64,000 nucleotides of DNA. It comes from Spirochaetia bacterium. Lineage in GTDB: Bacteria > Spirochaetota > Spirochaetia > Sphaerochaetales > Sphaerochaetaceae. The stretch is from the NCBI GenBank assembly GCA_022482625.1, contig JAKVOU010000001.1, positions 1 through 64,000 of the forward strand, written 5' to 3'. The notes under the pieces are model-generated. The model did not search any database. It was not told where the DNA came from and worked only from the letters and a program-made list of their open reading frames with translations. This document shows positions 23,343 to 28,287 of the stretch, piece after piece. Position 1 is the stretch's first letter. Each line of letters begins with the position of its first letter. The translations under genes and the position numbers were made by a program.

Positions 23343-23680
23343 TGACAGTAAAGATGTGGCACTTGTGTCACTATTTGTAGTAGCAGTTCAATGATGAAAA
23401 ATATGCATAAATCGGTGGATTTAACTTGTGACTGTTTTTATAATTTCTAATAATATCTGATATAGATAAAATATTCTTTATACAAACTGTGCATAAATAT
23501 TGTTTGTTTAGGAAATAAAATTTAATAAATATATGATTTTTCTTACATTTTATGATAGTTGTCTATTGTGAATAATGAAAGTTATGACATAATCAAACCT
23601 GAAAAAAGAAAATCTGCATGGAAAGGTGTTTCTGTATTTGTATGGAAACACTTTCTTCTTGGATTGAAAGAGGTTCTGTT
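23343..23680. other. AT-rich region upstream of the retroelement target gene
   Basis: About 340 bp, very AT-rich, with no supported gene. It presumably carries the promoter of the lipoprotein gene, but several weak -10-like sequences prevent a firm call. Confidence 0.4.
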
Positions 23681-25943
23681 ATGTCCATAAACAAGAGACT
23701 GAAATCTGCTAGAGGTGTATATAAACTTTTGTTCATTGCTTTACTTGCTGTTTTATTATTGCTGGTAGGTTGCAAGGACCCTGATCCCTACGGTGAACTG
23801 CAGTTTGGCTTAGACGAAGGTACGTCCAAGTCAATAACTCCCGGAAGCAGTGCCAAGGTCACCCAGGTGTCCTTCTGGGGGGAAGAGACAAACAGCAGCA
23901 AGACGCTTTCCAAGCAGACATTGATCCTCGGTGAAAAGAATACGGTCTCCAGCATTCCCGTAGGCACCTGGGACTTCCATGTGGAAGGGATGAACAGCGA
24001 CGGGACGGTGATCACCGAACAGGCCGATGCAACCGGAGTCGCAGTCAACTCAGGGAAGACGAGTTCCATCAGCTTCACCCTGCATTACCTTACAAGTGAC
24101 AACGGGACCTATAGCATAGGGATAGGCTGGCCGGATGACCTGTCATCGACCTTTACCAAGGTTGAGGGCAAGCCTCGGGGACAGCTGGTATGAAGGAGCC
24201 GTGAGCGGGGGCAGTGCGACGGTGAGTGGCAGTGCCGCTGCAGGCGACTACATGGTAGGGGTGAGGTTCACCAATCCCTCCGGTACACAGATTACTTTCT
24301 CAGGGATGGACATGGTGAACGTGTTCACGGGGCTGGAGTCGAGCGGGACGATCAGCTTCGAGGACGCAGACTTTGCCAAGGCGGCACAGCCGACGATAAG
24401 CACAGGGGATGTGACCGGCGGCAAGCAGGTGACCATGGCAACCGATACAGCAGAAGCGGCAATCTACTACACGACAGACGGGACTGACCCTGCCACCAGC
24501 AGTACGAGAGAGAGCTATACAGCTCCGTTCACCTTGGCAGAGAGCAAGACGATAAAGGCGGTTGCCGTGAAGGCAGACCTGCTGGATTCAGAGGGAGCCA
24601 GCCAAGTCGTCACGGTTTCTGCTGTTGCGACACCGACTTTCAGCCTGAGTTCAGGAGATTCGCAAGATGTTGCCATCAGCTGCAAGACTGGCGGAGCAAC
24701 CGTCCATTACCGGTATGCAGTAGGCAACGGAAGCTACGGGAGCTGGACAGAAGGGATGGCAGTGCCGGTGACGCAGGGCAAGGAGCTCAAGGTGGAGGCC
24801 TATGCAGAAAAGGACGGGATGGTCAGGTCTGCCACAGGGACACAGGCCTACAGCGTTGCCACAGGACCAGACTTCAGCAAGACCACCGGAACCTACAGCA
24901 ATACATTTACGCTGACACTGACCGGCGATACCATACGCTACAAGGCAGGAAGCGGTACCTACCGGACCTACTCGTCAGGCATCAGCATCGCAAGCACAGG
25001 GACGACGGTCACGGCATTCGACGAGGCAAGCGGAGAAGTGAACTCTGCACCTGTGAGCAATACCTACACGCTCAAAGTAACGACACCAGTCATTTCCCAG
25101 AGTGACACCACCGGAGGGCAGAAGGTAAGCATCAGCTGTGGGACCAGCGGAGCAACCATCCACTATACGACAGATGGGAGCACGCCTGCATCGTCCAGCA
25201 CTGCCTACGCCGGCGCAATCACGCTGACATCAAGTACGACGGTCAAGGCCATTGCGGTGAAGGACAACTTTGCCAGTTCCGAAGTGGCAAGCAAGGCAGT
25301 TACAGTTTCAACAGTAACGACACCGACTTTCAGTCCCACAGGCTGTACTTTCAGTGATACGCAAAGCGTAACAATGACAAGTACTAGCGGGGCCACCATC
25401 TACTATACGACAGATGGTACTACACCGACGACAAGCAGCAGCCATGTTACATCAGGAGGAAGCATTACCCTCAGTGCCACAACGACGGTAAAGGCGATGG
25501 CAGTAAAGAGTGGCATAGCAAACAGCAGTGTGGCAAGTACAACCTATAAAACCTATTCCGTAGGAGATGAAGGTCCTGCGGGAGGAAAAGTTTTCTATGA
25601 CAAAGGTTCTTATATTGATGACTGGCGGTATCTTGAGGCTGCTCCTGCTGATGAAAGCGGAACATATACTTGGTATTCAGCAAAAAGTAAATGTTCCAAT
25701 AAGACGGTATCATATGGCGAAAAAACATATGATGATTGGTTCCTGCCATCAGTGGGTGAGTTATATGAAATGTACGAGCAAAAAGATAGTATCGGAGGAT
25801 TCGTTAGTAGTCAGTATTGGAGTTCTTCTCAGTCCGGCGCTTACAGCGCGGGCGCGGTCAGCGTGGTCTTCAGCAGTGGCACCTGGTACGACGACTACAG
25901 CAGGAAGCACATCCACTCTGTTCGGGCTGTGCGGGCTTTCTGA
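23681..25943 (+). pseudogene. DGR target: surface lipoprotein with chitobiase-like repeats and a variable lectin-like tail (frameshifted)
   Basis: The first frame (23681-24193) encodes a lipoprotein signal ending LLVGC and a Ser/Thr-rich stretch. After AAG at 24170-24172 one extra C (24173 or 24174) ends it early. The second frame continues directly as LGDSWYEGAV to 25943, restoring about 753 residues. The middle holds three or four CHB_HEX_C-type repeats (YYTTDGTDPATSS, HYTTDGSTPASSS, YYTTDGTTPTTSS). The last 120 residues (GPAGGKVFYDKG..WRYLEAAP..DDWFLPSVGELYEMY) match the DUF1566/Lcl C-terminal, C-type-lectin-like domain found in Treponema DGR targets such as TvpA. The final 37 residues are the variable repeat. 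The start has GAGG upstream. An assembly error at the frameshift is possible. Confidence 0.85.
25830..25940 (+). repeat. DGR variable repeat (VR)
   Basis: The last 111 bp of the target gene align with the template repeat at 26547-26648. They share a CAGTCC start and a GTTCGGGCTGTGCGGGCT end, the likely initiation-of-mutagenic-homing segment. In the alignable left part I count 17 mismatches, and 16 of them are at template adenines (A to G, T or C). The VR is 9 bp longer than the TR: two codons extra near AGCGCG/GGCGCG and a net one codon in the right part. The next codon after VR is the TGA stop. Confidence 0.9.
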
Positions 25944-26002
25944 TTACCTATTTGTCTATTTGACTATTTTAAAAGGAGGTGCAGGAACTTGGGGCCCTGC
26001 AC

Positions 26003-26365
26003 ATGAAATACAAGGAGCTTTCTGTGGCATTATACTATGACTTGCCGGTATTCCATGATGTGTACCATATGATCCTGTTGCTTTTTCAGTATACAAAAGA
26101 TTTTCCGCGGAAATACAAGTTTACGCTGGGACAAGATATGAAAAGGGATGGTATTGTATTGGTACGTAGTATTTATCGTGCGAACAAAGCCATGGAAAAA
26201 CGGAGATATCTGGAGCAGTTCCTTGATGACTGAGAGATTCTGAAATTTGAAATTCGGCTTTGTGTTGATCTCAGAATCATGAGCATGAAACGGCAGGCAG
26301 CCCTTGCCGTATATATGGAACGAATAGGAAAACAAATCATCGGTTGGCGTAATGCCAGTCGGTGA
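26003..26365 (+). pseudogene. avd: DGR accessory variability determinant (Avd), interrupted by in-frame TGA
   Basis: The four-helix-bundle Avd protein binds the reverse transcriptase and template RNA. The frame reads KYKELSVALYYDLPVFHDVYH, then FPRKYKFTLGQDM, a typical Avd start. It stops at a TGA (26231-26233) after LEQFLDD. In the same frame it continues EILKFEIRLCVDLRIMS to GKQIIGWRNASR and a second TGA at 26363-26365, which is exactly the normal Avd C-terminus (..IGRQLGGWLKS type). So one nonsense codon removes the last third. The strong site AAAGGAGGT (25972-25980) is far from the ATG at 26003, so an alternative start codon between them is possible. Confidence 0.82.
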
Positions 26366-26496
26366 AGGCCGGAATGACTGTGGTTACGGCCATAGCTAGC
26401 GAGCCAGGCTTTGGATGAAAGCGGCAGGAAGTCTGTATGGTAATACACACAGGGAAATGGTCTGACAAAGACGGGCGTCTCTGTCAGCAAAACGCT

Positions 26497-26538
26497 CCTG
26501 CGTCATTGGATTTGGTCCGTATGCGAGCTAGACGCAGG
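26497..26538. repeat. Inverted repeat just upstream of the template repeat
   Basis: CCTGCGTC (26497-26504) and GACGCAGG (26531-26538), 8 bp perfect with a 26-nt loop, end 9 bp before the TR. DGR template RNAs are structured on both sides of the TR, so this may be part of the RNA fold recognised by Avd and RT. Confidence 0.5.
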
Positions 26539-26546
26539 GCCTGTTG

Positions 26547-26648
26547 CAGTCCAGCGCTTACAACGCGTACAACGTAAACTTCAACAATGGCAACAAAAAC
26601 GACAACAACAAGAACAACAACAAATATGTTCGGGCTGTGCGGGCTCTC
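26547..26648 (+). repeat. DGR template repeat (TR)
   Basis: A 102-bp non-coding repeat, very rich in AAC codon-like triplets in the VR reading frame, which is the hallmark that lets adenine mutagenesis diversify exposed residues. It lies between avd and the RT gene. It shares its flanks with the VR at 25830-25940 but is 9 bp shorter. The last few bases differ from the VR (CTC against TTC). Confidence 0.9.
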
Positions 26649-26718
26649 AGGCCAAAGCTATGCGGGAGCTGGAGAAAAGATTTCCAGTTCCCGCATTTGT
26701 CCCTATCCTATACCACTT

Positions 26719-27847
26719 GTGGATTTCTATGATGCATATGAAGCCTGCCGGCAGCATACACGGCATACAGCTGCAGCCCAGTTGTTTGAGCTGGATTATG
26801 AGAAAAACTTAGAAGCACTTTACAAGGAAGTCAATTCAGGAACATACAAGATCAGTCCCGCTACGGCTTTTGTCGTGCGGGAACCCGTACCCCGTGAAAT
26901 ATTTGCTTCTGCGTTTCGAGACAGGGTCATACAACACCTTGTCGTACAAAAAATCCTTCCATTGCTGGAAAAACAAAACATCCAAGACAGCTATGCCTGC
27001 CGTAGGGGAAAAGGTACCCATGCCGCTATCCGAAGGCTGGATCATTTTATCAGAAGCTGCTCACAGAATTACACCAAGGAATGCTGGATTCTGAAACTTG
27101 ACATCAAAGGTTTTTTCATGAGCATAGACAGGACAATCCTCTATCGACAGCTTTTGTCCTTGCTTACGCCTCTGTGCAATGAACCGAGTTTTTCCCTTGT
27201 ACTTGCCTTGATTTCCCAAATTATTTTCCATGATCCTACGACTGACTGTATCATCAAAAGAAAGAGAAGCGACTGGAATCTCCTCCCACAGGAAAAAAGC
27301 CTTTTCCATGCGAAGAAAGGTTGTGGACTCCCACTTGGAAACTATACCAGCCAAATCTTGGCCAATTTCTACCTTTCTTCATTTGACCACTTTAGCAAGC
27401 ATGACCTTAGGATCCGTCGGTATGTACGATATGGTCATTGTTCATTTGAAAAAGAATTTCCTGCAATTTCTTATTCCTGTTGTCCGCGCTTATCTTGCAA
27501 AACATCTGCATCTTACACTTCATCCGAAGAAAATGTATCTGCAACCATGCAAGAACGGGGTCCGTTTCCTTGGAATCCAGTTCAAGCCAGGTCATCTTCT
27601 TGTCTCCCGACGTGTTACGGAGCATGCCTTCAGGACAGTAGGTGAATGTAACAAAATTGCTTTTTACCATAAACCTACCGTTGAGGAAACCTTGCATGTA
27701 CAGGCACGTGTCAATGCATACTTTGGCCTATTGTCCCATTACCATACCTACAGGCTTCGCAGAAATTTATCCCTTTCTCTTGTTACCTCATGGAAAAACC
27801 GTTTGGTTCCGGCTCCTGCCTACCGTTTTATGGTCCGTAAGAAATAA
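26719..27847 (+). pseudogene. DGR reverse transcriptase, frameshifted at the catalytic YVDD
   Basis: The first frame carries the N-terminal RT motifs: TYKISPATAFVVREPVPREIFASAFRDRVIQHLV, LKLDIKGFFMSI (motif A Asp) and LPLGNYTSQILANFYL. LGNxxSQ replaces the usual QGxxxSP and is the DGR-type signature. The frame then reads RRYVRYGH. The +1-shifted frame resumes as DMVIVHLKKNFLQFL and runs through the thumb to 27847 (VRFLGIQFKPGHL). Two missing bases (GA) after 27426 would restore YVDDMVIVH. The deletion thus removes the first catalytic Asp and shifts the frame. The start is uncertain; I give a GTG at 26719. Confidence 0.87.
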
Positions 27848-27942
27848 TAGTCTGGCAGAAATGTCTAGTAGTTGGATTTGTCATTCAGTTACCTTGACTC
27901 CATTTTCCTAGGTGAGTAAGCTTGTTGACAAGGAAGGTTGCC

Positions 27943-28287
27943 ATGGAAAAATCAAATCAACTGTATATACTCTGGACCAATGCTGATGAGTTGACATCAG
28001 AAAAGATGGTAATGATGTATGCCACCAACAGCCTGCTGGAAAAATGGTGGGATGCTGTAACCGTCATTATCTGGGGCGCCACCACGAAACTGGTTGCGGA
28101 GAATACCTCCATCCAAACAAAGATACAGGTTGCCCAACAAGCGGGAGTGCAATTTTCAGCCTGCAAGGCCTGTGCTGACCAGCTGGGCGTTGCTGACAAG
28201 CTCATCGGTCTGGGCATTGAAGTCATCTATTGGGGTGAAGGGTTGACGACAATACTGAAAGACGGGGATAAACTGCTGACCGTCTGA
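27943..28287 (+). CDS. DsrE/DsrF-like family protein
   Basis: A 114-residue cytoplasmic protein of the DsrE-like fold: LYILWTNADELTSEKMVMMY at the N-terminus, VTVIIWGATTKLVAEN, and a conserved Cys pair in FSACKACADQLG, close to the active-site Cys of sulfur-transfer relatives. Relatives move sulfur in tRNA thiolation or sulfur oxidation, or have unknown roles. It starts after AAGGAAGG at the ATG at 27943, just downstream of the broken RT gene but in normal host codon use. The function here is not clear. Confidence 0.75.
   Translation: MEKSNQLYILWTNADELTSEKMVMMYATNSLLEKWWDAVTVIIWGATTKLVAENTSIQTKIQVAQQAGVQFSACKACADQLGVADKLIGLGIEVIYWGEGLTTILKDGDKLLTV

Follow-up and report, generated by a model that had tools for sequence, protein, structure and literature searches.

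Bordetella phage BPP-1 carries a diversity-generating retroelement (DGR) in which avd, the template repeat (TR) and the reverse transcriptase (RT) follow each other in this order, mutagenesis acts on adenines, and an initiation segment (IMH) lies at the 3' end of the variable repeat (VR). In known DGRs the TR and VR copies of the IMH segment differ. The DGR of Treponema denticola has remote targets and shows strain-specific loss of core parts, and in one strain a remote VR fits the TR of another strain type better than its own (Nimkulrat et al. 2016, PMC4891356). DGRs have also been described whose RT is inactivated by a nonsense mutation, a frameshift or an insertion but whose TR/VR pair can still be recognised; their pairs contained A-mutations only, and the inactivation was therefore called very recent (Schillinger et al. 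2012, PMC3521204). According to PMC12875486, which cites Wu et al. 2018, a proposed origin of indels in the AAC repeats of DGRs is slippage by multiples of three.

The locus described here belongs to a member of the Sphaerochaetaceae and was found in a window, i.e. the whole stretch of DNA analysed, of 64,000 nucleotides; all of its features are on the forward strand. The gene order is target, VR, avd, TR and RT, as in DGRs, and the locus is a DGR by descent, without an intact catalytic motif. The target gene (23618–25943) encodes a lipoprotein that carries CHB_HEX_C/Fn3_assoc repeats and, at its C-terminus, a domain of the Lcl_C type. The Lcl_C match itself was weak (E 6e-7, below the curated cut-off), and further matches were to the NCBIfam adhesin_Lcl C-terminus and, by sequence, to PDB entry 8q4e; a C-terminal lectin-type VR domain is thus predicted for this protein. 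The gene is split into two ORFs (23618–24193 and 24135–25943) by a 1-bp frameshift at about 24166–24168, where one extra G is present (GGG, compared with GG in both intact paralogues).

The two other core genes are also broken. The avd pseudogene (26003–26371) has an in-frame TGA at 26231–26233. Up to this codon (76 aa) the Pfam bAvd score was 29.7 bits; with read-through it reached 61.2 bits and the match covered almost the full profile, while the NCBIfam DivGenRetAVD score was 58.7 bits, under the cut-off of 80. The RT pseudogene (26734–27847; RVT_1) retains LGNYTSQ when aligned to 12 intact relatives, most of which have TR/VR pairs of their own, and so agrees with the motif (I/V/L)GxxxSQ that defines the DGR clade of RTs (PMC3521204). 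Compared with the same relatives, an 11-bp deletion at the 27433/27434 junction removes V-D-D of YVDD and destroys the frame, so that the intact YxDD needed for an active DGR is missing. In addition, the RT was altered at 11 of 95 residues that are invariant in the relatives (11.6%), compared with 1–5 of about 100 (1–5%) for the relatives themselves in the same test. The genes adjoining the DGR are open, and the three core genes are broken in three different ways, as read from a single assembly. Judged from these lesions the element is very probably dead, and the lack of a catalytic motif in the RT leaves the present TR unable to serve as a template.

In three congeneric species the ygiQ-ilvE spacing is about 150–250 bp and the DGR locus is absent; no RT was found in congeners. 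In the genome studied here the same interval measures 5.1 kb and holds the DGR and a small ORF of 121 aa. This ORF (27922–28287), DsrE-like by eye, is located between the DGR and ilvE, within the segment that the congeners lack. Of 139 genomes in the family, 3 have the RT. A search at the ends of the 5-kb insertion for direct repeats that could hint at its route of arrival gave none that were convincing, and the IMH 18-mer had no match in viral contigs.

A strong stem-loop (26660–26696; −29.7 kcal/mol, z −6.85) begins 12 bp after the TR. Several relatives also have strong hairpins after the TR, and the stem-loop probably belongs to the DGR RNA. A weaker hairpin, GTGCAGG...CCTGCAC (25979–26002), is located about 40 bp after the VR; by eye, slightly altered versions of it are present at the targets at 255, 575 and 619 kb. 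It may correspond to the stem-loop next to the VR in BPP-1, or else belong to the avd leader. No Rfam family was detected across the DGR locus.

The TR (26547–26648) is AAC-rich and 102 bp long, and is the only one found in the genome, while the local VR (25830–25940) has 111 bp. The gapped alignment contains 102 aligned columns and 24 substitutions, and was the same under plain match/mismatch and adenine-tolerant scoring. Substitutions occurred at TR adenines, of which there are 39, in 21 of the 24 cases (hypergeometric p = 1.9e-8). The adenine share, 0.875 in the observed pair, did not exceed 0.74 in any of 300 simulated pairs that had the same indels and random substitutions. The preliminary description had reported 16 of 17 substitutions at TR adenines in the left part, which is exact when counted left of the second non-A change. 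It had named as refutation a full alignment with non-A mismatches as frequent as A mismatches; over the full length, the count was 21 adenine to 3 non-adenine substitutions. The latter are T22>G, C69>G and C100>T, and wherever one 6-bp and one 3-bp insert were placed, at least three remained.

C100>T falls within the GC-rich 3' initiation segment, which in the local VR is at 25920–25940 (GTTCGGGCTGTGCGGGCTTTC, with CTC as the end of the TR copy). Since TR and VR differ in this segment in known DGRs, the change needs no explanation by templating, leaving only two substitutions and the length to be explained. The excess of 9 bp, already noticed in the preliminary description, is made up of two gaps of 6 and 3 bp, in both of which the VR is the longer partner. 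The larger one corresponds to the duplication-like AGCGCG/GGCGCG seen earlier, located at 25845–25856, for which the TR has AACGCG only once. The one letter in which the copies disagree falls on an adenine of the template, as would suit a duplication made before or during copying better than one made later in the VR.

The genome (3.47 Mb) contains one RT and one TR, and no second RT was detected. A search with the TR revealed two remote VRs of exactly 102 bp, at 255606–255707 and 619579–619680, which are located in intact lipoprotein genes (805 and 789 aa, respectively). Both are equal in length to the TR and collinear with it, unlike the local VR, and their differences from it are concentrated at adenines (17 of 20, p 2.6e-6, and 14 of 18, p 2.2e-4). 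This indicates that a TR of the present length wrote the remote targets. The adenine bias strongly supports the earlier claim of past mutagenic retrohoming, for the local VR and for both remote VRs. Further paralogues of the target were found at 575, 730, 812 and 2859 kb. The VR at 575 kb was not counted as a product of the TR, its adenine bias being weak (23/44, p 0.0097). In translation, the VR domains of the seven paralogues in the genome measure 34 to 38 codons when counted from WSS or an equivalent motif.

The IMH segment of the local VR is identical in the VRs at 619 and 575 kb, and the VR 3' end together with its downstream flank recurs at six loci. Moreover, the 5' end of avd, cut at differing points, follows the remote targets at 255, 575 and 619 kb. 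The truncated avd ends and the recurring flank indicate that these remote targets were copied from a DGR locus or are the remains of sister loci.

Two TR positions give information on the template. Position 78 is A in the TR, within an unusual AAA codon, and C in all three TR-related VRs; position 100 is C in the TR and T in all three. By chance, about 0.015 cases of a C shared by three VRs at a TR adenine would be expected among the 39 adenines (estimated by hand from the observed A-to-C rates), so a change in the TR after it had written these VRs is probable. The preliminary description had proposed that either the TR changed or the VR came from a sister TR. This is plausible and receives some support from the shared C78 and T100, but no 111-bp TR is left: in a search of the genome with a pattern allowing A at every VR position and up to 3 mismatches, only the VR itself was matched.

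It is fairly probable that the DGR diversified three lipoproteins, and that a longer TR, earlier or sister to the present one, wrote the local VR before the TR was shortened, wrote the remote VRs and the element died. According to this history, the DGR, chromosomal and of the TvpA/Lcl lipoprotein type, would have resided between ygiQ and ilvE, and at least three paralogous surface lipoproteins, one adjacent and two far off, would have been diversified by TR copying with adenine mutagenesis. The local VR would have been copied from a TR with a second AACGCG and one extra AAC-type codon. After loss of these units the 102-bp form would have written the remote VRs, an order of homing suggested by few sites. 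One disabling lesion each in RT, avd and the local target would then have followed, and with these lesions the TR would no longer have been used and may have drifted, including the change from C to A at position 78.

The same length change could also arise without any change in the TR, by slippage during reverse transcription. Loci around DGR RTs from genome contigs, viral contigs and genomes of the same family were surveyed for length differences. A TR/VR pair was detected at 170 of 210 loci, and 22 of the 170 (about 1 in 8) had gaps within the repeat with anchoring on both sides, the loci being phylogenetically non-independent with exact duplicates alone removed. The pair of the window is outside this count because its longest ungapped segment is under the score threshold, and so the survey rate is independent of it. 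Multiples of three accounted for 24 of the 27 gap events, and the remaining three all came from one locus. At this locus (L030), three VRs for one TR had apparent gaps of 1 and 2 bp at nearly the same place. Among the in-frame events the VR was longer in 17 and shorter in 5 (two-sided sign test p 0.017; one repetitive pair left out). Most events were in AAC arrays, to which it must be added that adenine-tolerant scoring also draws gaps to adenines. The largest difference in the survey was a VR 24 bp longer than its TR (L061), and in one of the two DGR-bearing relatives from the family (L074) the VR was 3 bp longer.

The earlier statement that the present TR cannot be the direct template of the local VR was too strong, since codon-sized indels recur in other DGRs and slippage has been proposed for them; the indels alone do not exclude the present TR. 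It is possible, if rather unlikely, that the 102-bp TR did write the local VR, with the RT slipping by multiples of three along the AAC-rich template, the repeated codons being mutagenised independently and the two non-A substitutions being ordinary later mutations. Such an origin agrees with the frequency of codon-sized indels in the survey, mainly in AAC arrays, with the slippage on AAC repeats proposed according to PMC12875486, and with the difference between AGCGCG and GGCGCG at a templated adenine, as expected from re-copying. However, the 6-bp insert is AACGCG-like and not AAC, the TR offers a single such unit to slip on, and two indels and two non-A substitutions in one VR require several events. 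A more general idea is possible but again rather unlikely: codon-sized length change may be a regular second axis of DGR diversification, in which whole codons are added to or dropped from AAC arrays before or in the course of copying, the added codons are mutagenised independently and VRs tend to become longer. If true, the seven paralogous VR domains, with their range of lengths, would be its record.

Compared with copying from a longer TR, a change in the local VR after homing, by in-place duplication and point mutation in a pseudogene target, is improbable. The target is frameshifted, and its sequence may drift, but both indels are codon-sized, 21 of the 24 substitutions are still at template adenines, and the near-duplicate copies are not identical and differ at a templated adenine. 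That the lesions in RT, avd and target are errors of the one assembly available, and the DGR active, is very improbable: the target lesion is an extra G in a short G run, but a 1-bp insertion, a nonsense codon and an 11-bp active-site deletion lie within one 4-kb locus with open neighbours, and the RT has an excess of change at invariant residues.

A single genome here holds a template/target series, with a probably older local VR, newer remote VRs, a drifted TR and a dead enzyme. Such a series helps to read the history of DGRs where the active element is gone. The survey also shows that equal TR/VR length is not a strict requirement for a DGR; searches should not demand it, as roughly one in eight of the surveyed loci breaks the rule, and almost always by whole codons.

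In its surface lipoprotein targets, predicted C-terminal lectin-type VR domain and arrangement of a core locus with remote targets, the element resembles the T. denticola DGR (TvpA), which is also a precedent for the loss of core components and for a VR that fits a TR other than the resident one, and from which it differs in that RT, avd and local target are broken together, the local VR has two codon-sized insertions and the targets are of the Lcl_C/CHB_HEX_C type. With BPP-1 it shares the avd-TR-RT order, adenine mutagenesis and an IMH at the VR 3' end, whereas the target is a bacterial lipoprotein, the RT is dead and TR and VR are unequal. The TR-VR length difference in multiples of three is like that of the AAC-repeat indels of Wu et al. 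2018, as cited in PMC12875486, except that the 6-bp unit is AACGCG-like and not pure AAC. In contrast to the RT-inactivated DGRs of PMC3521204, the locus shows non-A and length changes, and its avd and target are broken too. The locus is a decayed DGR, ordinary in kind, which goes beyond the known features in its non-A drift and in its avd and target lesions, and in which the history of the VRs is still readable.
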